Source of the DNA: Rhodocollybia butyracea
Lineage: Eukaryota > Basidiomycota > Agaricomycetes > Agaricales > Omphalotaceae
NCBI GenBank assembly: GCA_015501585.1
Contig: JADNRY010000233.1
Location: forward strand, 32,700-96,699
Direction: 5' to 3'
Length of the DNA: 64,000 nucleotides
The translations under genes were made by a program, and so were the position numbers. Positions 39,032 to 63,594 of the stretch are shown here, one piece after another (position 1 is the stretch's first letter; each line of letters starts with the position of its first letter). Below the pieces are notes generated by a model that was not told the DNA's origin, made no database searches, and saw only the letters and a list, made by a program, of their open reading frames with translations.

Positions 39032-41625
39032 ACAGGGGATGACAAATGTCGTGCCCGATGGATACACCAGGTACACAGAGTGTATCGACGTATGGTATGT
39101 CATGCAGTGGGGAAACCCGTCACAAATACAGACGGAGCTAAGAATATCAAGCTCCCAACGCCTGAGGCATACGATGGTACGCCAGACGTAGAAATTTTCG
39201 AGAGATGGTTAGCCATCCTTCTCAGATGGATGGCTGTAAATTGCTATTGTGGTAAAGACCACGATAAAACACACCTCCAGGTATTGGGTTTATTCCTCAA
39301 GGACAAAGCCCTTGATTGGTACAACGACGAAGTCGATGGACCTCATAGGATCACAATATCCTGGAAATTCGAAGACGCCATAATAGGAATCTTCGATAGA
39401 TGCGTACAAGCATCTACAATACATCAAGCTGCTCAGCAGTTTGAACAAGTAATATACTCACCCGCTAAAGGAGTATGAGATTATCATGCCACCCTATTAA
39501 GATGGGCGGCAAGGATGCAGCAGCCGCCTAATTCGGCTGCGATGCGCAATCGATTCATTAATGGGTTACCCATTACGATACTGAAACATCTAGCGAACCA
39601 AGGCATCGTTCCAGAGTATGCTAAACTCAGAACGATGGTCAAAGCGGTTACTAGACTCGAGGACAATCGTCATCTCGAAGATTACTACGTGATTTCACGT
39701 AAGAAACCGAGCTCTGAAGACTCGAAATATATCACTAAGTGAATACACCGTGAAGCAAAAGTACAACCAAGTGGTAGTACAGGACCATATAAATATGGTC
39801 CAGTGCTCGTCAAAGGACGACCATTTCAACTGGTGAAGCATCGCTTCTCCAATAATAAATCGAAGCCCGTACGCACTGAGAATACACTCAGAAGCACGGG
39901 ACAGGTAACGAACTCTAAGAGTTCAAGACCTAAACCGTCTAGTGACACAAGCACTAGAAAACTCTGCTACGGATGTGGCAAACCGGGACATTTTGCAAAT
40001 GACCCTACTTGTGAACGATACGGGCAACCCCGCATGTATGTCATCCAAGAAGAGGAGATAGAATCTCCTCCGATAGTCAAAGAAGAGATTCAAAATGATG
40101 AATCTCCAAACATAACTGATCCTAATGACGAGGAATCGTCCGAAGGAGAATACACCCTCGAACCATACAAGGATGAATATGTCGGTCGACTATATGACGA
40201 CGACAATGACTTTAGCGACTACTATGGTCGCATAATGGAACCGGTTCAGACTGATTCTGAGGATTTTGAAAATCCATTGACGACCATTTCAACTGGTGAA
40301 GCATCGCTTCTCCAATAATAAATCGAAGCCCGTACGCACTGAGAATACACTCAGAAGCACGGGACAGGTAACGAACTCTAAGAGTTCAAGACCTAAACCG
40401 TCTAGTGACACAAGCACTAGAAAACTCTGCTACGGATGTGGCAAACCGGGACATTTTGCAAATGACCCTACTTGTGAACGATACGGGCAACCCCGCATGT
40501 ATGTCATCCAAGAAGAGGAGATAGAATCTCCTCCGATAGTCAAAGAAGAGATTCAAAATGATGAATCTCCAAACATAACTGATCCTAATGACGAGGAATC
40601 GTCCGAAGGAGAATACACCCTCGAACCATACAAGGATGAATATGTCGGTCGACTATATGACGACGACAATGACTTTAGCGACTACTATGGTCGCATAATG
40701 GAACCGGTTCAGACTGATTCTGAGGATTTTGAAAATCCATTGACGACCATTTCAACTGGTGAAGCATCGCTTCTCCAATAATAAATCGAAGCCCGTACGC
40801 ACTGAGAATACACTCAGAAGCACGGGACAGGTAACGAACTCTAAGAGTTCAAGACCTAAACCGTCTAGTGACACAAGCACTAGAAAACTCTGCTACGGAT
40901 GTGGCAAACCGGGACATTTTGCAAATGACCCTACTTGTGAACGATACGGGCAACCCCGCATGTATGTCATCCAAGAAGAGGAGATAGAATCTCCTCCGAT
41001 AGTCAAAGAAGAGATTCAAAATGATGAATCTCCAAACATAACTGATCCTAATGACGAGGAATCGTCCGAAGGAGAATACACCCTCGAACCATACAAGGAT
41101 GAATATGTCGGTCGACTATATGACGACGACAATGACTTTAGCGACTACTATGGTCGCATAATGGAACCGGTTCAGACTGATTCTGAGGATTTTGAAAATC
41201 CATTAGATGATTGCGGACCACCGGTCTGCATAGAAGAGGATATGGATGATGATTTATTCTTATCCATAGATCCTCACTATCATTCATTCATAATGAATGA
41301 AGATCAGTTGACTGCTATCAGTCACCATGAAGACGAAGAACCAAAACCTGAAAAAGGTAAAGGTTTTCGAACTTCAAGTAAACAAATGCCGCGACCAAAT
41401 AGAGGTCCAGCGAAAGATTGTCGTCCAATGACAGTGATAGTAAATATCGGGGGAGTCGAAGTGTTTACGCTATTTGACTCTGGATGCACAATAGAGGCAT
41501 TAAGCCCCTCGTTTGTTCGCATAGCGAACATAAAAGCTGATCAGCATTCACTACAACTAGGAACGGTAGGAAGTAAAGCCAAATTCAATTTTGGCACAAG
41601 TGTAAATACCTCCTATGTCACTCCT
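39032..41625 (+). pseudogene. Gag/protease remnant of element B with internal triplication
   Basis: Starts within Gag at the residues before the capsid domain (CRARWIHQVHRVYRRM). It has stops at 39476-39478 and 39740-39742, both CGA to TGA relative to A. The zinc-knuckle region is present three times; because the repeat unit is 463 bp, each junction also changes the frame. The last copy continues through the acidic linker and protease (FDSGCTIEALSP) to NTSY, where a deletion of roughly 0.8 kb joins it directly to the RT segment VTPFPDQDNIRMDV. Confidence 0.9.
39817..41205 (+). repeat. Three tandem copies of a 463-bp gag segment
   Basis: Copies at 39817-40279, 40280-40742 and 40743-41205. They look virtually identical by eye, beginning ACGACCATTTCAACTGGTG and ending GAAAATCCATT plus GA or AG. 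Element A has a single copy. Near identity shows the triplication is recent compared with the divergence of A and B. Confidence 0.95.
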
Positions 41626-52139: not shown

Positions 52140-53790
52140 TAGGATTCATAAGGGTTCTACCTGGATGCCTGGTCGAGGATAGCTGGTACATATCTGGGAT
52201 GTTGCTGTTTCATACCTGGTCTGTACCTGTCCTGACTTCTGTCCGTAAATCACACTTTGGTTCTACCTGGATGACTGGTGGGGCATACCTGGTACACAAC
52301 TGGGCTCTTGCTGCTTCATACCTGTTCTGTACCTGTGGCCTCTGTGGATCAAACCTGGGTTGTATCTGGATGCTTGGTGGAGCATAGCTGGTACATATCT
52401 GGGATCTTGCTGTTCTGTACCTGTCCTCTCCTTAAATCACACCTGGGTCCTACCTGGAGGCATGGGGCATCCGACCTGGTATGCAACTGGGGCCTTGCTG
52501 CTTCATACCTGTTCCGTACCTGTGGCCTCTGTGCATCATCCCTGGGTTCTATCCAGATACATGGTGGAGCATAGCTGGTACATATCTGGGATTTTCCTGC
52601 TCCCTATCTGTTCCATACCTGTCCTGTCCATAGACCACACTCGGCTTCTACCTGGATCCCTGGTGGGGCATACCTGGTACACAACTGGGGTCTTGCTGCT
52701 TCATACCTGTTCCATACCTGTGGCCTCTGTGCATCAAACTGGGGTTCTATCTGGATACATGGTGGAGCATAGCTGGTACATATCTGGGATCTTGCTGTTT
52801 CATACCTGGTCCATACCTGTCCTGACTCCTGTCCGTAAATCACACTTGGGTTCTACCTGGATGGCTGGTGGGGCATACCTGGTACACAACCAGGGTCTTG
52901 CTGCTTCATACCTGTTCCGTACCCGTGACCTCTGTGCATCAAACCTGGGTTCTATCTGGATGCATGGAGGAGCATACCTGGTACATAACTGGGAACTTGC
53001 TGCTCCATTACGGCCATAATAGTGTGTAATAAATCAGATATTGAAGCCATCAAATGCAAGAATGTTGGTACCTGGTACAGTGGTACACAACTGTGGTCTT
53101 GCTGCCTCATACCTGTTCCATACCTGTGGCCTCTGTGGATCATACCTGGTTTCTATCTGGATGCATGGAGGAGCATGCCTGGTATGCCACTGGGCTTCAT
53201 ACCTGTTCTGTTCCTGTCCTGTCTGTAGATCACACCTGTGTTGTACCTGGATGCCTGGTGGGGCATCCCTGGTACACAACTGGGGTCTTGCTGCTTCATA
53301 CCTGTTCCATACCTGTGGCCTCTGTGCATCAAACTGGGGTTCTATCTGGATACATGGTGGAGCATAGCTGGTACATATCTGGGATCTTGCTGTTTCATAC
53401 CTGGTCCATACCTGTCCTGACTCCTGTCCGTAAATCACACTTGGGTCTACCTGGATGGCTGGTGGGGCATACCTGGTACACAACCAGGGTCTTGCTGCTT
53501 CATACCTGTTCCGTACCCGTGACCTCTGTGCATCAAACCTGGGTTCTATCTGGATGCATGGAGGAGCATACCTGGTACATAACTGGGAACTTGCTGCTCC
53601 ATTACGGCCATAATAGTGTGTAATAAATCAGATATTGAAGCCATCAAATGCAAGAATGTTGGTACCTGGTACAGTGGTACACAACTGTGGTCTTGCTGCC
53701 TCATACCTGTTCCATACCTGTGGCCTCTGTGGATCATACCTGGGATCTCTCTGGATGCATGGTGGAGCATCATCAGGAAAATGCCCCCTA
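52140..53790 (+). repeat. Minisatellite array with ~100-bp period, alternating two monomer types
   Basis: Monomers of about 99-103 bp alternate: type 1 contains GGGCATACCTGGTACACAAC, type 2 GAGCATAGCTGGTACATATC. Both share CATACCTGTTCCRTACCTG and GGCCTCTGTG. A block of about 506 bp (52643-53149) is duplicated 594-595 bp downstream (to 53743) with one lost base, including a unique insert with AATAAATCAGATATTGAAGC. Because 99 is a multiple of three, long frames open on both strands. Confidence 0.9.
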
Positions 53791-53825: not shown

Positions 53826-54530
53826 CCAGCCAACCTGAGGGCGGTGCATCCAGATAGAAACCGGGTATGATCCACACCACAGATGCTACAGGTACAGAAC
53901 AGGGATGAAGCAGCAAGGCTCCCATTGCATACAAGTTATGCCCCACCAAGCATCCAGATAAAAGCCTCGTGTGATCTAAAGACAGGACAGTTACAGAACA
54001 GATATGAAGCCACAAGATTCCTGATATGTACCAGCTATGATCCTCCATGCATCCAGATAGAAACCAGGTATGATCCACCTGAGAGGCCACAGGTACAGAA
54101 CAGGTATGAAGCAGGAAGACCCCAGTTGCATACCAGGTATGCCCCACCAGGGATCCAGGTAGAACCCAAGTGTGGCCTACAGACAGGACAGGAATGGAAC
54201 ACATAGGAAGCAGGAAGATCCCAGATATGTACAAGTTATGCTCCACCATGCATCCAGATAGAACTCAGGTATGATGCACAGAGGCCACAGGTATGGAACA
54301 GGTATGAAGCAGGTGTGATCTATGGACAGGACAGGTACAGAACAGGTATGAAGCAACAAGACCCCAGTTGTGTACCAGGTATGCCCCACCAGCCATCCAG
54401 GTAGAACCCACATGTGATTTACGGACAAGAGTCAGGATAGGTACCAACCAGGTATGAAACAGCAACACCCCCAATATGTACCAACTATGCTCCACCATGC
54501 ATCCTGGTAGAAACCAGGTAAGGCCACAGG
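53826..54530 (-). repeat. Same minisatellite in reverse orientation
   Basis: After a unique spacer (about 53775-53825, including CCAGCCAACCTG), the monomers continue as the reverse complement: GCATCCAGATAGAAACC, GGCCACAGGTACAGAAC and so on. The array is thus a large imperfect inverted repeat with arms of 1.6 and 0.7 kb. Confidence 0.88.
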
Positions 54531-56007: not shown

Positions 56008-58410
56008 TCAGTTAAAGAGAATTCCTAGACTGTTGCGGAATTTCTGAAACTTGACAAGTGCAAGGTTCTTCGTGAGAAGATCTGCAACATTATCATCAGT
56101 AGGAACATAGAAGAGTTCTATTTCTTTTGATTCGATGCGTTCTCTGATATAATGATATCGTATATCAATATGCTTGGTTCTTCTTTCTTGTACAGGATTA
56201 GATCCTAGAAAGATTGATCCTTGATTATCACCACATAAGGGCAATACAGCGATAGTAATTCCAATCTCAGAAAAGAGAGACTTGAGCCACATAAGTTGTC
56301 TACATGAATCAGATAAAGCCATGTATTCAGCTTCAGTCAATGAAAGAGCAACTGTTTTCTGTTTATGAGAAGTCCAGCAGATTGGACCTGTGGCAAGTTT
56401 GATAATCATCCCAGTATGGGATTTTTGATCATCTGGATCTGACGCCCAGTCAGAATCACAATAGGCTAAGAAGCCATGGTCAGATCTACCATCAAAGGCA
56501 AGTACGTAAGTAGAAGTCCCAATTAAGTAGCACACAATGTAAAGTGCTTTGGCCAGGTGGTCTGGGTTTGGATTCGCCGAATACTGTGAGAGTTTTATAA
56601 CGGCATAAGCAATGTCGGGTCGGGTGCCTAGCATCAGATACAATAAAGATCCAATTCCGCTTTGGAAGCATTGTCTAAGTTTGGCATCTACACGACCAGT
56701 GTTTGCACAAGGAACCCAGGATGAAGGTAATGGGGTTGGGGTGGCTTTGGCATTAGTCAGTCCAAAACGTTCTATGACCTTTTGAAGATAAGGTTGTTGG
56801 TCAAGTGTTAAGACACGTTTGGAACGATCCCGTGTAATCCGCATTCCAAGGAACTCAGTTGGTTCTCCTAGATCACGACATTCCCATAATTTCATAAACT
56901 CATTTTTCTTTTTAAGAACAAGATCTTTGTCCTTGCCAAGAAAGAGTGCGTCATCAACATAGATGATGGCAGTTACGGTTTTGCCATTTGATTTAAAGAC
57001 GTATACACCAGCATCTGAAGAGCAGTGCTTAAATCCCAATTTTCCCATGGAGGTGTTACATTCCTTCCACCAGGATAAGCTAGCTTGTTTCAGTCCGTAT
57101 AATGCACAATGTAACCGCCATACTTTTGTTGTGCCTTCTTTAATGAAGTCTTTAGGTTGTTCCATGTAGATCTCTTCATCTAGCTTGCCATAAAGAAAAG
57201 CCTGTTTGACGTCAAGAGTCTGGATTTCCCAGTCCTCTAATGCGGCTAAAGCTAGGAGAGTTCGTACAGTTTCAAACCGGGCGACTGGTGAGAACAACTC
57301 ATTATAATCCACACCTTCTACTTGTGAAAAACCTTTTGCTACGAGTCGGGCTTTATAGCAACCATCAGATTTTTTAGTAAAAACCCATCGACAACAGATA
57401 GGTTTGCAACCTTTTGGTAGATCAACTACTTCAAAGACATTTCGTTTCTTCAAACCATTGATCTCATCTTTGCATGCTTGATCCCATTTCTTTCTTTCAG
57501 CAGATGGTAAATGACAATATGATGTTGGAGAAATCCAATTATCAGGATTATTCCTAGCGGCTTCGTGTTTAGCCAGTATCATTTCACTGTCAAGATCTGT
57601 GATAAAAGATGATTCTTCTAGAGAATCGGAGATTGCTTGCGAAAGAAGGTATTTTTGTAATTCAACTCCCCCTTCCTGAGCTAGTTTAGTCAGAAGTGCT
57701 TCCTCTTCTATGTCAGAATCCGGAGTAGCGCCGGGAGGTGGCGGTGTGACCATACAGTCATCAGGATTCAATGGACGTGGTGGTGGAACCGGTGGCGGAA
57801 CTTGATCAGGAACTATATTGCGAGCAGGCACAAGTCCACGTCTAGCGTGTCCAAAGTGCTCAGCAAGTTCTTCACGATCAGCTTGTCGGCTCCAAGTGCC
57901 AGGCGTGGGTATCATGCCAGGGCGCAAGGGTGCACGACGTTCTCTAGTGGGGTTCACACGTTTCCATGCTTCAACGTCTTTGGGACGGTAGCTGAATGGA
58001 TTAGGATTGGGAGCAGGTGGTGAAGGGTCTCTTGCTTGAGGTGGAGGGGTGGGTGATCGAGATGGTACCGGAGGATCGGGATTTGGAGCATCATCATCAC
58101 CAGGCAGATCTGGATCTGGGCCAGCTGATGGACTGTGCGGTCCATTATCCGGTTCAGTAAACGGTTGTGGTTGATCTTCCGGGAATTCCGGATCAAATGG
58201 AATGTCTGCACCATTACCATTTGAAGGTTGCGAAGGTTTCACAGGCGTGGGGGCAACAGGTATAGCGGGTTTTACTCCAGAATCAGATTCGGATTTGCAC
58301 CGTGGAAACCATTTCTCATAGAAAGTTGCTTGTGCAGCATGCACTACGGAATTATCGCTACGCATGAATAGATATCCTTTGCTTCCTTGGTCATATCCAA
58401 TGAAAGTCAT
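56008..58410 (-). CDS. Copia pol: reverse transcriptase and RNase H with end of integrase
   Basis: An 800-codon open frame with no internal stop. It starts in the Copia segment after the integrase core (MTFIGYDQGSKGYLF), and the frame continues upstream to about 58434. A Pro/Asp-rich linker of about 200 residues follows, then RVT_2: WDQACKDEINGLKKRNVFEV, then CRWVFTKKSDG, ARLVAKGFSQVEGVDY, the catalytic box IIYVDDALFLG and FLGMRITRD. RNase H reads AYCDSDWASDPDD, LSLTEAEYMALSD, KHIDIRYHYIRERI and DNVADLLTK. The intact frame implies recent activity of the family even though this copy is truncated. Confidence 0.92.
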   Translation of the reverse strand: MTFIGYDQGSKGYLFMRSDNSVVHAAQATFYEKWFPRCKSESDSGVKPAIPVAPTPVKPSQPSNGNGADIPFDPEFPEDQPQPFTEPDNGPHSPSAGPDPDLPGDDDAPNPDPPVPSRSPTPPPQARDPSPPAPNPNPFSYRPKDVEAWKRVNPTRERRAPLRPGMIPTPGTWSRQADREELAEHFGHARRGLVPARNIVPDQVPPPVPPPRPLNPDDCMVTPPPPGATPDSDIEEEALLTKLAQEGGVELQKYLLSQAISDSLEESSFITDLDSEMILAKHEAARNNPDNWISPTSYCHLPSAERKKWDQACKDEINGLKKRNVFEVVDLPKGCKPICCRWVFTKKSDGCYKARLVAKGFSQVEGVDYNELFSPVARFETVRTLLALAALEDWEIQTLDVKQAFLYGKLDEEIYMEQPKDFIKEGTTKVWRLHCALYGLKQASLSWWKECNTSMGKLGFKHCSSDAGVYVFKSNGKTVTAIIYVDDALFLGKDKDLVLKKKNEFMKLWECRDLGEPTEFLGMRITRDRSKRVLTLDQQPYLQKVIERFGLTNAKATPTPLPSSWVPCANTGRVDAKLRQCFQSGIGSLLYLMLGTRPDIAYAVIKLSQYSANPNPDHLAKALYIVCYLIGTSTYVLAFDGRSDHGFLAYCDSDWASDPDDQKSHTGMIIKLATGPICWTSHKQKTVALSLTEAEYMALSDSCRQLMWLKSLFSEIGITIAVLPLCGDNQGSIFLGSNPVQERRTKHIDIRYHYIRERIESKEIELFYVPTDDNVADLLTKNLALVKFQKFRNSLGILFN

Positions 58411-58654: not shown

Positions 58655-58945
58655 TTTGGCTAATAATTTGTATCAATTACAGTTTGTTTGTTGTTGTACT
58701 ATATAATTACTTTTCCTATTTTAATTCTTCCAGATACTTGCACATATACTTGCAGGTACCTGTGCTGACTTGAGTCACAGGTACCTGTGGGTCTACTTGT
58801 GTAAATTACTTGCAGGTCCAAGTCAAGGTTCTCACGGGTCTTTGCCAAGTCACAGGTCAACTTTTTTGAGCTTCAGGTACCTGTCTGACGAGTCCGAGTT
58901 GACTTGGATTTGGACTCATGTGCATCTTTACCTACCTTGGACATT
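58655..58945. repeat. Resumed CAGGTACCTG-type repeat region
   Basis: AT-rich spacer, then from about 58735 the ACTTGCAGGTACCTGTG words that also occur at 54.8-55.4 kb. No gene. Confidence 0.5.
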
Positions 58946-59034
58946 GCTGCTTTATACCTGTTCCGTACCTGTGGCCGCTGTGGATCATACCTGGTTTCTA
59001 TCTGGATGCTTGGTGGAGCATAGCTGGTACATAT
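58946..59034 (+). repeat. Single minisatellite monomer interrupted by element C
   Basis: Matches the 52-54 kb monomers (ACCTGTTCCGTACCTGTGG, then TGGTGGAGCATAGCTGGTAC) until ACATAT at 59034. In other monomers CTGGG follows; here element C begins, which fixes the insertion point. Confidence 0.85.
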
Positions 59035-59224
59035 TGTTATGACCTGATTCTACACTATAGGCATACACACACTCTTTTTTCATTTATTAACAACCACCAC
59101 CATGACTATCATTAATATTTTACTACCTAACACTATCACATACATTCATTACTTATCTTCTCAACACAACTTGGGATAATGCTGCACATTACCATGGAAG
59201 CTGCAAAGACCCTTCCACACAGTA

Positions 59225-59415
59225 TTGACTCATTATTAGTCAACTCCGGTTCCACTAAATGACTCAATATCAGTCATCCATGACTCTACTGAATGACTCA
59301 ACATCAGTCATCCGCAGTTCCGCTTAAATGACTCAGTAACAGTCATTGCACACCATTCCACAGTCATGCTGACTGATCCGCAGCATTTCCGCAGTTATGA
59401 CTCAAATCTAGTCAT
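59225..59415 (+). promoter_or_regulatory. Five 19-bp inverted sites with TGACTCA cores in U3
   Basis: Copies at 59225-59243, 59259-59277, 59293-59311, 59328-59346 and 59397-59415, each WTGACTCA, five variable bases, AGTCAW, with an exact 7-nt distance between the inverted TGACT/AGTCA arms. TGACTCA is the Gcn4/AP-1 bZIP core. The first copy has TTGACT with AGTCAA; the rest ATGACT with AGTCAT. They lie 36-226 bp upstream of the TATA box, as an enhancer would. Confidence 0.8.
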
Positions 59416-59450
59416 TCTGCAGCATTTCCTAACTAGTACATATTAAACAG

Positions 59451-59457
59451 TATATAA
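59451..59457 (+). promoter_or_regulatory. TATA box of element C
   Basis: TATATAA followed by GAAGG, placed between the repeated inverted sites and the hairpin array. A transcript starting some 30 bp downstream would carry all nine hairpins. Confidence 0.65.
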
Positions 59458-59558
59458 GAAGGCTAGATTTACCAATGTACGGTAGACGTATTATTTTTCT
59501 TAAATCCAAACCCCCACTTGTTTGCTGTTATCACTTGTGTGAATCACCAGACCAACTC

Positions 59559-59916
59559 ATTGTATCTTGTTGAGCTATCTCCAAGCTACAATACACATTT
59601 ATACATCTTGTTGAGCTAACTCCAAGTTGTATCCACTAATATTCACCTGTTGAGCTATCTCCTAGTGAATACTTCTTTAATTGCCACTTGTTGAGCTATC
59701 TCCGAGTTGCAACTTCCTATTACTTGTTGAGCTATCTCCGAGTATTAGACATCACACTCACTATTACTTGTTGAGCTATCTCCGAGTATTAGACACCATA
59801 CTCACTACTACTTGTCGAGCCATCTCCGAGTATTAGTTCTGATTCATATTACTGCTTGTCGAGCCATCTCCGAGGGTAATCTTATTATTATTTGTCGAGC
59901 TATCTCCAAATAATAA
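59559..59916 (+). ncRNA. Array of nine hairpins with constant tip and co-varying stems
   Basis: Hairpins at 59559-59592, 59601-59632, 59640-59671, 59681-59712, 59717-59748, 59761-59792, 59805-59836, 59848-59880 and 59885-59916. Each has a 12-nt top TYGAGCYAWCTC, closed in most by CTTG with CRAG. Within the top, GAG pairs with CTC, leaving a 2-nt bulge (TT or TC) on the 5' side and a four-base loop (CTAT, CCAT or CTAA). The lower stems differ: ATTGTA/TACAAT, ATACA/TGTAT, TATTCAC/GTGAATA, TTGC/GCAA, ATTAC/GTAAT, TTATTATTTG/CAAATAATAA. Both arms change together, as expected if an RNA structure is selected. Role unknown; packaging, dimerisation, translation control or a host-protein site are possible. 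Confidence 0.75.
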
Positions 59917-59938
59917 CTTCTGTGAGTTTTGTATTACA

Positions 59939-60139
59939 AACTAGTTACTAACTTTACTTGAGCCTAGTTGTTTGAGTATATATTTTTTGCCTAGCGGTTT
60001 CAACAAACGGAAAGGCTTGCTCTATAATCTCATTAATTTCTCTTATCATTTTTACTGCCGAGTTACGTACTGTGAAGGTTTGGACGAGACTATTGATCGA
60101 GTCATAACATAATAATACGTCTCCACCCGCCCCCATTAA
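59939..60139. other. Leader of element C before gag
   Basis: About 200 bp between the presumed LTR end and the gag ATG at 60140. A primer-binding site should start near 59939 (AACTAGTTACTAAC), but I could not match it to a tRNA end. Confidence 0.4.
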
Positions 60140-63100
60140 ATGTCTACACAAACAACTAGAACCCGCACAGGGTCTCACCAGAACCCTCAAACATTTGTTC
60201 AAGGATCTAGTATCCAAACTATTCCAACTGGTTTTAATGCTCCAGGATATACACTGGGACAAGACATTTCCAATGTTGGAAATACCAGCAATTGGACACC
60301 CACTGATATTTCAGAAGGTGAAGTTGTAGTAATGCGGAGAGTTCATATTGGATCAAATGGATCAAATTTCAGTGAAACTGTGGTTCAGGAAGTTAGAGTG
60401 CCTACTACTGCAGAAATTGCCCAGATCTTTGCTCGTCATGATGACCATTCCACCAGTCATTCAGTTGAACGTGGTTCGCGAGGACAACAGCAGCAAATTC
60501 CTGATTTTGCAACAATTATGCCTCTACCTTCTTCATATCATAGTCATTCTGCACAATCTGATGCACACAGATCTCAAAGCGGACAACCTCCAAGGCAAAG
60601 CAGGGATATAATTCAGCTCTCAGAACCAGAACAAAATCCTTCACCTAGCCACCATTCATCACCTGTACCATCAATTAACAGGAATGTATCTCCTCAAGCA
60701 ATTGCTCCGAACAGATCAGATACACCAATAATTGAATTCTTTGACTCTTTACATGCACAATATAGAGCTCAACAGTCAACTGCAAGACCAGGTACATCAC
60801 CTGTCAGAGGATCACCAAAGTTGTCTGTAGTTCCTGAGGAAAGCCAAGAGCATTTTATTGCTCCTAGTAACCCACCTCATGGGTCTACACCTTGGCAATC
60901 TCACAATTCTCAGTCAGACCATAATGCTTTAAGTGCCATTAGGAGTTCAAACCAGTCACAAGGACATGAACAATTGCCTGTTCAACCACAAGTTTTGCAA
61001 CCAGTTTTAACTGTCAGGAACATCCCATCACCAGGTGGATCTTCCAAAAGCTCAGTAAAAAGCTCAGCAAAACAAGGTTCCCATAAGTCAAGCAATAGTG
61101 TACCAATTTTGAACCAGCTTCAAAATGAACAAACACAGTTTGACAGACTTAGTCAACAATGCCAAAAATTCTTAGAGTCACTAGGCTATAGAAGCAGTAG
61201 TGCTCAACCTTGGCAATGGGTTCAGCAGTTGGAAAGACTAGGTCAGAGAGAGCTTGCATTACTAAGTCCAAGTCTGTATCAGCGGATATCAGATGAAAGG
61301 AATAGTCAAATGTTAACATACCTATATGATGAGACACAAAGGAATGAAGTTCAAGTTCTACTGAGGGCAAGAAGTAGCACTAGCATGGAATTAGCACCTT
61401 CTGTTCATATGAGCCAGACGGCCAAAGTACAGGAAAATCCACCAAGTGTTCACACACCAGTGCAAACACCACCAAAAGCAGAAGTTCTGCCAAGTGCACA
61501 TGCCCCCATGCAGAGAAATCAATTTATTGAGAACACAAGAAATGTGGAGGAAACTCATGTTCCACTTACAGAAAGGAACTCTAGACAAAATGAAAGCCCT
61601 AACAAGACTGACAGAATTCTTGCCTGGACAAGAAGGGTTCAGCCACCAAGCCCTCAAAATGTTGAGATACCAATTATTCAACCCACAACACATATGCCAT
61701 TAGCAACTAATCCTGTTGAAAAAATTGAGCAAGTAGTGAGAAATGAAAATCAACATGATCACTCTAGGACTCAATTCCAACGAGATGAACCACCTCATGC
61801 AAGTGGTAGTCATGTGCTATTGGATCAAGGGAAAAGAAATACCAGACTTAGAAGCAGAAAGGAAAATTTTGCAATACCTACAAAATATGAACCTGCCCAA
61901 GCCTCAACAAGTCAGCAAGTATTTCCTGAGACACAAGTTAGAAAACCTACAATTGATTCTCCTCACATTCCAATGCCAATCCAATCTCCTGTGCACTTGG
62001 TAGAACCAACACCATTGCTTGCAGAACATCATAGCCAGGTTCCACAGACTCATAAGACTGTTGTACCTAGGCCTTTGAGTCTGAATTGGGGTGATGAAGC
62101 AAATGAATTTTTGCCAATCAATGGTTATCCATTCATCCCAAATAAAGGCAAGACACCTGTCAGAGCATCAGGAGGAGCGCCACCATCACCCCCACCACCA
62201 GATGATCCTGGAAATCATAGTGAAGGGAATGACCCAAGCAGAAGTAATGATGAGAACAATAGAAACAATTCCCACAGGAATGGCGGACCCAATGGATCTC
62301 CTCCACCACCAAATGATGGCGGACCTCCAAAAATACCTTGTGGAAAATCTAATTGTTGCTGCTGCAAAGATGGAAGAGATGGAAGGGACGGCAGGGATGG
62401 ACGTGATGGCAGAGATACCAATGAGCGTGATCCAGAAAGAGAGGAGCAGAAAAGAAGGAATGAAGAAAACCACTAGAGCTCTGGCAAGAGAGTCAAAGCT
62501 TGACATCAACAAACCAACTCCATTTGATGGATCTAACAGAGCTGCTTGGAGAGCATTTTTAAATTCAGTACTGATAATGTTCAATGCAAAGCCAATGACT
62601 TACTCTACAGATAATTCTAAAATTACATTTGCCGCATCATACCTTACAGGAGCTGCAGCAAAGTATTACAATAATCTAGTAGAACAACAGGCCAATGGAG
62701 AGAATGAATCCTTCATTCCATCATTGAATATCTGGTCTGAGTTTGTTAAGCTGTTTGGACGCATGTTTGGTCTCCATGATGAGAAAATGCATGCTCAGTC
62801 ACAACTAGACAAATGTCTACAAGTTCCCAGGGAGTCATTTGCAGACTTTTTAGTCAAGTTTGAAGATATTGCTAACCGCACTACTTACAATGACCCTGCT
62901 AAGAGATGGAGACTTCTGAATCAGATCCGACCAGATCTGCGCAACCGCCTAACAATGGTTGGCAATTTACCAGAAACATATCAGGATGTTGTCGATAGAC
63001 TACTAGATATTGATGGCACAACGAGAAGCATTCAATGACTCCGGACTTGGAAACAATTTCAGTAGTGGAAACAATCGAAATGCAACCATCAATAACCAAC

Positions 63101-63594
63101 CTATTGACCGCAACCAGACTGGAAATGGTTACCGCACATCTGCAAATGCAATTTTCAACCAGGAATTAATCCACCAAATAATCGCCCAATACAAGCGCAA
63201 CCACAGGGAGCCACCACATTTACTAACACGCAGACTCAAAAGACTACCTACTAGAATGAATCCAAATAATTCTAGAAATAATAATGTCAATGAGGCACCA
63301 GCTGTAGTAAGAATGGCATGGGTCACTCAAGAAGAATATGACCAAAGACGCGCAAAAGGGGCTTGCACTTACTGTGGTGAAATGGGTCATTTTGCGAGAG
63401 ACTGCCCACAACGGCGCAATAATGCATCAGGTCGAGCCACATTTATGGACACTTCCAGTGACATACCCAGCAATATTACACTTGAAGTTGAAGATGAAAT
63501 CTTGGATATTGACAGCACACTCTTGGAAGGAGGCCTGAAGGGGAGGAATATGAAGATCTCACCAGGGAAACGTCCTGAGACTCAGGAAGAATAG
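60140..63594 (+). pseudogene. Gag of element C with very long disordered N-terminus
   Basis: The first frame (60140-62476, 778 codons) is Gln/Ser/Pro/His-rich and low in hydrophobic residues, with a short helical island near 61140-61340 (QQCQKFLESLGYRS, QQLERLGQRELALLSPSLY). It ends in a Pro-rich stretch, a Cys cluster (NCCCCK) and five tandem Gly-Arg-Asp triplets (62367-62418). The capsid domain continues in the +1 frame (62490-63038: NKPTPFDGSNRAAWRAFL, then AASYLTGAAAKYYNNL, FADFLVKFEDIANRTTY). A third frame (63010-63594) has the zinc knuckle CTYCGEMGHFARDC. Frame changes near 62460 and 63020 are either indels in this copy or, at the first site, conceivably natural frameshifting. Confidence 0.8.

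Follow-up and report, generated by a model that had tools for sequence, protein, structure and literature searches.

A row of nine hairpins with near-constant tips between the predicted self-primer and the primer binding site of a chromovirus-like element in Rhodocollybia butyracea

Introduction

Why should the long terminal repeat (LTR) of a fungal retrotransposon carry a row of hairpins that share their tips and differ in their stems? The question is raised by a 64,000-nt stretch of the genome of Rhodocollybia butyracea, an agaric of the Omphalotaceae (bases 32700-96699 of a 96,699-base contig; hereafter the window, in which all coordinates are given unless another locus is named). An earlier note on this sequence had described nine copies of a short motif recurring every 36-44 nt, each enclosed by inverted arms that differ between copies and pair within a copy, and had proposed that RNA or cruciform structure is under selection in a retrotransposon leader. 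What is described of packaging and self-priming in fungal chromoviruses concerns mainly fission yeast elements, as far as the accessible parts of the literature show. The several hundred LTR copies in the R. butyracea genome, which fall into several subfamilies, amount to a mutagenesis experiment on a leader RNA carried out by nature, and the array makes RNA selection and folding by a self-primed element directly testable.

Results

Position, tips, and copy number of the array

Nine exact copies of TYGAGCYAWCTC were found within positions 59560-59916, as the earlier note had stated, starting at 59570, 59611, 59650, 59691, 59727, 59771, 59815, 59859, and 59895 with a spacing of 36-44 nt. When up to two mismatches were allowed, 29 matches occurred in the whole window against 29.0 expected; hence the signal lies in exactness and clustering rather than in the count. 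In its own genome, the 13-mer TYGAGCYAWCTCC had 1591+1347 exact matches, compared with 5+5 for the pattern read backwards. Among the units of the window, identity was 0.91 in the 12-nt tips and 0.37-0.47 in the outer arms, which is not the pattern of a plain tandem repeat. TRF reported repeats with 93% matches at 59717-59836 and with 75-86% in wider rows, none of which reached unit 1 or unit 9. Rfam yielded no match at gathering scores for the window and none at E<=1 for 59440-60180. Among viral contigs, 19 stretches contained a 16-nt piece of a unit, none with a second unit in the DNA covered, and they were taken as chance.

The element of the window belongs to a family, here called A, with about 350 LTR copies (354 first-look candidates), of which 41 loci including the window were sampled. 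These loci are mostly those nearest to the window or earliest in contig order, they are neither random nor fully independent, and some may be the two LTRs of a single element. Each array contained 7-12 recognised units. Five tip variants accounted for 354 of the 366 units, in a search that allowed up to two substitutions and thus left strongly altered tips uncounted. The middle 44-nt units were the most variable in number, and the outer units were mostly kept, being lost or altered in some copies. A few units were chimeric, combining the left arm of one unit with the unmatched right arm of another, and resemble what unequal exchange via the constant tip would produce. A rearranged copy was also observed (L073:1303-1640), in which an LTR end with its primer binding site (PBS) is closely followed by two more array units and another LTR end.

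Table 1. Features of the element and of its LTR in the window.
Feature	Position	Strand	Basis or remark
5' LTR (TGTTATGAC...GTCATAACA)	59035..60109	+	Boundaries by comparison with L031
Five same-strand TGACTCA boxes in U3	59226..59404	+	5 of the window's 11 TGACTCA sites within 179 bp
TATA box TATATAAG	59451..59458	+	33 nt 5' of predicted RNA start
Predicted RNA 5' end and self-primer AGACGTATTATT	59484..59495	+	Exact 12-nt PBS complement, unique in LTR; ensemble P 0.72-0.98
Hairpin 1	59560..59591	+	Arm test, family A columns, ensemble; variant in 8/36 units breaks one pair
Hairpin 2	59601..59632	+	Arm test, family A columns, ensemble
Hairpin 3, two mismatches adjoining closing pair	59640..59671	+	Arm test, family A columns, ensemble
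Hairpin 4	59681..59712	+	Arm test, family A columns, ensemble
Hairpin 5, 44-nt repeat class of varying number	59717..59748	+	Arm test, family A columns, ensemble
Hairpin 6, 44-nt repeat class	59761..59792	+	Arm test, family A columns; weakest in ensemble, P 0.30-0.47
Hairpin 7, 44-nt repeat class	59805..59836	+	Arm test, family A columns, ensemble
Hairpin 8, asymmetric internal loop	59848..59880	+	Arm test, family A columns, ensemble
Hairpin 9, perfect 10-bp stem	59885..59916	+	Arm test, family A columns, ensemble
U5 arm	59964..59985	+	22 nt, 86% complementary to gag start arm
Primer binding site AATAATACGTCT	60111..60122	+	One base past LTR end
Gag start arm including ATG 60140	60138..60159	+	Complementary to U5 arm
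First ORF	60140..62476	+	Starts at first ATG of predicted RNA; no Pfam match
Gag capsid region, Retrotrans_gag	62463..63035	+	PF03732, E 1.5e-08
Gag zinc knuckle region	63010..63591	+	PF00098, E 1.1e-07

The array within the LTR and the predicted leader

The LTR could be delimited by comparison with the copy L031, in which two identical LTRs (1252 bp) are flanked by a 5-bp target duplication, ACAGG. Each of these LTRs carries an array, as expected of a complete copy when the array lies inside the LTR. The earlier description of a retrotransposon leader holds insofar as the array occupies R-U5 of the predicted RNA; the array is not solely a 5' leader sequence. Its reported placement downstream of a TATA box and upstream of gag was right, and can be narrowed to the interval between the predicted self-primer and the PBS, two elements that are 615 nt apart. 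The TGACTCA boxes of U3 are presumably bZIP sites. In L031, a tandem repeat with TGACATCA-like boxes takes their place; evolution of the promoter portion of the LTR seems to proceed through repeats of its own.

The RNA 5' end at 59484 was predicted from the distance to the TATA box and from the extent of an ATG-free stretch. The leader at 59484-60139 (656 nt) contains no ATG, compared with a mean of 9.9 in shuffled sequences, and none of 2000 shuffles was free of ATG. The nearest ATGs bound this stretch at 59475 and 60140, as would be expected if the RNA began at 59484 and were scanned to the gag start. ATG-free leaders were also found in L031 (700 nt) and in L078 of a third family, C (355 nt). 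In a second family, B, 19 of 24 leaders, counted to near the LTR end, lacked an ATG, and the other five had one or two. TATAAA was present 32-35 nt upstream of the self-primer in all 11 of the family B loci compared for it, and L077 is without TATAAA.

The junction of the LTR end and the PBS had 50 exact sites in the genome and its reversed control had none. Apart from the self-primer, no exact complement of at least 9 nt to the first 21 nt past the LTR was found elsewhere in the LTR. The corresponding pairs are AGACTTCTTATT with AATAAGAAGTCT in family B and TTTAGTCTCTATATT with AATATAGAGACTAAA in family C. Self-primer and PBS were exactly complementary over 12-15 nt, with three different sequences, in the window and L031, in L077/L075 and 10 of 11 further loci of family B, and in both loci of family C. 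Among family A LTRs, 23 had the 12-mer of the window and the others had shifted or changed forms, in a tally that was not matched to the PBS of each copy.

A further complementarity joins the U5 arm to the gag start (the U5:AUG duplex), on the downstream side of the PBS, where one of the two flanking duplexes of the Tf1 pretzel structure would lie. Dinucleotide-shuffled sequences gave an equally good duplex in 0/200 cases for the window and for L091, 6/200 for L078, 29/200 for L077, 54/200 for L094, and 76/200 for L081. The complementarity exceeds chance in the window and L091 and probably in L078, and does not in L077, L094, and L081. In combination with the duplex of self-primer and PBS, it would give rise to a pseudoknot, a structure that the folding program is unable to display. 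On the upstream side of the PBS, a Tf1-type duplex failed to exceed chance in all six leaders tested.

Base pairing and predicted folding of the hairpins

Arms paired best within their own unit, in agreement with the earlier note. In a test on the seven distinct units, only the true pairing among 5040 permutations of arms attained the observed energy or pair count, and the mean duplex energy was -7.3 kcal/mol for matched arms against -3.4 for swapped arms. The minimum free energy (MFE) of the array had a z of -3.28, with none of 100 shuffles as low. In the predicted ensemble of the whole leader, hairpins 1-5 and 7-9 co-exist with the duplex of self-primer and PBS at probabilities of about 0.6-1.0, and hairpin 6 at 0.3-0.5.

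Most stems are imperfect. One mismatch was found in six of the nine, two in unit 3, and an asymmetric loop in unit 8, so that only unit 9 pairs perfectly over 10 bp. Stem position 7 of the type 5-7 units combined two pyrimidines (T.T, T.C, C.T, or C.C) in 113 of 115 cases; a mismatch kept through all four combinations looks like a selected feature in its own right. The retention of this pyrimidine-pyrimidine mismatch indicates that pairing is not simply maximised. For the tips, the fold proposed by the earlier note (GAG with CTC, a 5' bulge, and a 4-nt loop; P 0.08-0.93) is possible and competes with a second fold of GA with TC and a 2x2 internal loop (P 0.00-0.84). The two are near-equal in most units, and a clear preference for the proposed one was found in unit 2 alone.

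Covariation in families A and B

Among the paired columns of family A, the non-majority states comprised 14 G.U pairs, four one-side and one both-side Watson-Crick changes, three A.C, and five other breaks; 15 of the 366 units, chimeric or shifted, were left out of this count, and the tip count given above omits 10 units from the second LTR of L031. Seven of the 14 G.U states were shared by at least two units (two of the seven through chimeric units), while all three A.C states were private to one unit. Two breaks were shared, one stemming from chimeric units and the other from unit 1 (8/36 units).

Arrays of family B mostly consist of four hairpins, with up to seven in L077 and three detected in L087 and L101. 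Their paired arms are closed by UG/CA, which was part of the search rule, and their loops vary from 8 to 11 nt. Extra hairpin matches in L086 and L090-L093 are probably due to chance. Since the MAFFT alignment misplaced hairpin 3, counts were made on stem-anchored blocks, for 23 of 24 loci (L088 was left out owing to indels). In hairpins 2-4, stem positions 3-7 were unpaired in 2 of 345 cells. Over 22 pairs in 15 distinct rows, 99.4% of these hairpins' positions were paired, and four pairs were altered on both sides: a CG/UA and a UA-UG-CG series in hairpin 3, and likewise in hairpin 4. The outer positions 8-10 of hairpin 3 were often unpaired, with A.C in five cells.

On four of five measures, none of 500 shuffles attained the observed value; the fifth, pair types, was attained in 128 of 500. 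Slid registers gave 17-70% pairing, all below the true register. These statistics amount to strong support rather than a formal probability, because the pairs were picked with the sequences in view and related rows inflate the counts. Of the three compensated pairs that RNAalifold identified in the full-length leader of family B, two lay outside the tip hairpins. Kissing interactions between family B loops were considered and rejected: 11 of 32 distinct loops were palindromic, at the level of shuffled loops (mean 10.6).

Taken with the arm-swap test and the predicted ensemble, the compensatory changes between family B subfamilies argue for selection on stem pairing, which is well supported; the earlier proposal of selection on structure is borne out in this respect, with RNA favoured over cruciform DNA.

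The element and its relatives

The element of the window runs off the contig end before reverse transcriptase. It is of the chromodomain Ty3/gypsy type, as judged from another copy, and looks like a self-priming element of the Tf1/sushi kind. This other copy, L108, encodes RVT_1, RT_RNaseH, Integrase_H2C2, rve, SH3_Tf2-1, and Chromo domains in two frames. A protein search with the first ORF (778 aa) returned no match at E<=1e-3 among 7988 scored candidates, a result made uninformative by the low-complexity sequence. In the window, Gag (60140-63594) is spread over overlapping frames; several other copies have open frames of 1132-1152 aa there. L031 is a recent-looking copy that is probably non-autonomous: its gag region and 3' LTR lie about 0.8 kb apart, too little to accommodate pol.

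In the capsid region, identity to family A was about 53-57% for family B and about 45-48% for family C. Two further families were observed, at 37% (L079, L105) and 27% (L107), and no recognisable leader was found in L100 and L104. Families A and B share a common design, with a TGAGY...YCC core in many tips. By blastn, no array of one aligned with an array of the other at better than E 3.7, which gives no evidence for their common descent. No array was visible by eye in family C, whose spacer measures about 330 nt. The arrays may therefore be old and fast-changing, or may have arisen more than once.

Discussion

Role of the array and alternative explanations

The reading that we favour, at a probability of about 0.5, is that the array is an RNA domain of a self-priming leader, whose hairpins are kept by selection on pairing and act as a multivalent Gag-binding signal for packaging or genome recognition while giving the leader its priming shape. 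The RNA would begin at 59484, and its first 12 nt would fold back onto the PBS and prime reverse transcription, with the hairpins occupying the loop of this fold. The tips would offer one binding site many times over, with Gag as the most likely partner; binding would mark the genomic RNA for packaging and keep the leader competent for priming. Repetition would give avidity, and this would explain the variable number of hairpins. A fixed tip on drifting stems, repeated in variable number, points to a ligand with avidity, for which Gag is the natural candidate. The sequences themselves show the pairing and its upkeep through altered letters, the place of the array between the two priming partners, and the ATG-free leader. 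From them we infer the RNA start, the self-priming, and the role of the array, and the same holds for the packaging, dimerisation, and translation signals that the earlier note associated with this region.

More tentatively, the array may represent a previously undescribed kind of genome mark, a multivalent hairpin array of compensatory evolution and free number that Gag reads and that builds the self-priming loop. Within one genome, the arrays of different families have distinct tips, and each family may in this way single out its own RNA. Binding of Gag to the tips, if it occurs, would make the array a clear example of an RNA mark present in repeated form in an LTR element. Against the favoured reading stand the variable tip loops of family B (8-11 nt), which leave no recognised sequence common to the families, the failure of blastn to align the arrays of the two families, the shared break of unit 1 (8/36), the chimeric units, the often unpaired positions 9-10 of family B hairpin 3, and the upstream Tf1-type duplex at chance level.

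The main rival to Gag recognition is that the hairpins are a folding spacer, shortening the 615-nt R-U5 stretch so that the 5' end meets the PBS, with tips that no protein reads. The location of the array between the two priming partners and the variable hairpin number agree with it, as does family C, which combines a shorter spacer of about 330 nt with no array seen by eye; yet it leaves the near-constant 12-nt tip of family A unexplained, along with the constant UG/CA closing pairs of family B (pairs that were in the search rule), and we regard it as possible but rather doubtful. An effect on translation, in which the hairpins and the U5:AUG duplex restrain or meter ribosomes scanning the ATG-free leader, is unlikely: the leader does end at the gag ATG, and complementarity of the U5 arm with the gag start is present in the window and L091 and probable in L078, but the stems are weak and AT-rich, and three of the six U5:AUG cases were not above chance.

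Tandem duplication and template switching in hairpins during reverse transcription could match the arms as a mutational by-product, and the copy-number change of the 44-nt units and the chimeric units are of the kind that such events would leave. Correction of this sort should, however, erase mismatches, whereas position 7 remains mismatched in 113 of 115 type 5-7 units; G.U pairs are also common, and family B has UA, UG, and CG states at single pairs, making this explanation very improbable. The least probable is that the palindromes act in DNA, as cruciforms or protein-binding sites. Regulators can bind to inverted repeats that lie close to a promoter. The raw MFE was lower for the antisense strand in five of six arrays, as is expected from base composition, and of the 78 distinct units of family A, 46 folded better in sense, 31 in antisense, and one equally in both. 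Against this, the z relative to dinucleotide shuffles was lower for sense than for antisense in all six arrays tested (-3.27 against -1.88 in the window; -2.5 to -4.6 against -0.5 to -2.9 in family B arrays), and A.C states were scarce and all private in family A (three) when compared with G.U (14, seven shared, two of these through chimeras). On these two grounds, the selected structure is likely to be sense RNA rather than cruciform DNA.

Comparison with known systems

In the accessible parts of the respective reports, the PBS of Tf1 pairs with the first 11 bases of its RNA (PMC7175516), the leader of the Tf1/sushi group adopts a three-duplex pretzel structure (PMC10085805), and Tj1 is described among the kin of Tf1 with this arrangement (PMC4600332). 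The present element resembles this group (Tf1, Tf2, Tj1) in its chromodomain integrase, seen in L108, and in a PBS that adjoins the LTR and complements the predicted RNA 5' end. It differs in the repeated hairpins of the loop, which those texts do not describe for the group, and in the upstream pretzel duplex, which is not above chance here.

Ty1 is primed by a tRNA. The 5' domains of Ty1 and Ty3 RNAs are structured and contain signals for packaging, dimerisation, and priming, according to the available portions of PMC5454406 and PMC11381356. A structured 5' end of the leader is thus common to these elements and the present one. By contrast, Ty3 is tRNA-primed, and tandem hairpins with constant tips are not mentioned for Ty1 or Ty3 in those portions.

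In Sirevirus LTRs, clustered repeats of dyad symmetry have a CGG-CCG core that is constant in all but one element, lie upstream of the TATA box, and are likened to transcriptional activators, as stated in the accessible text of PMC2829016. Clustering and dyad symmetry within the LTR are shared with the array; unlike those palindromes as there described, its arms vary and it lies downstream of the TATA box.

The iron-responsive elements of transferrin receptor mRNA form a row of hairpins with a constant tip and bulge and variable paired arms, read by one binding protein. The likeness to the present array is one of design only, with no Rfam match here. No description of a comparable hairpin array in a retroelement leader was found in the open-licence literature, a body that lacks most subscription papers. 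The element is of a known kind, and the array gives it a real and unusual RNA architecture.

Other features of the window

Several other repeats and elements were observed in the window. Three 463-bp tandem copies (100% matches) at 39816-41204 comprise a gag segment of another LTR element, and long minisatellites with units of about 99 and 201-205 bp occupy 52242-53770 and 53845-54313. ACCTGT-type pieces also occur near 58740-59000. Upstream of the element, at 56008-58410 on the minus strand, lies a copia-type ORF (RVT_2, E 7e-66).
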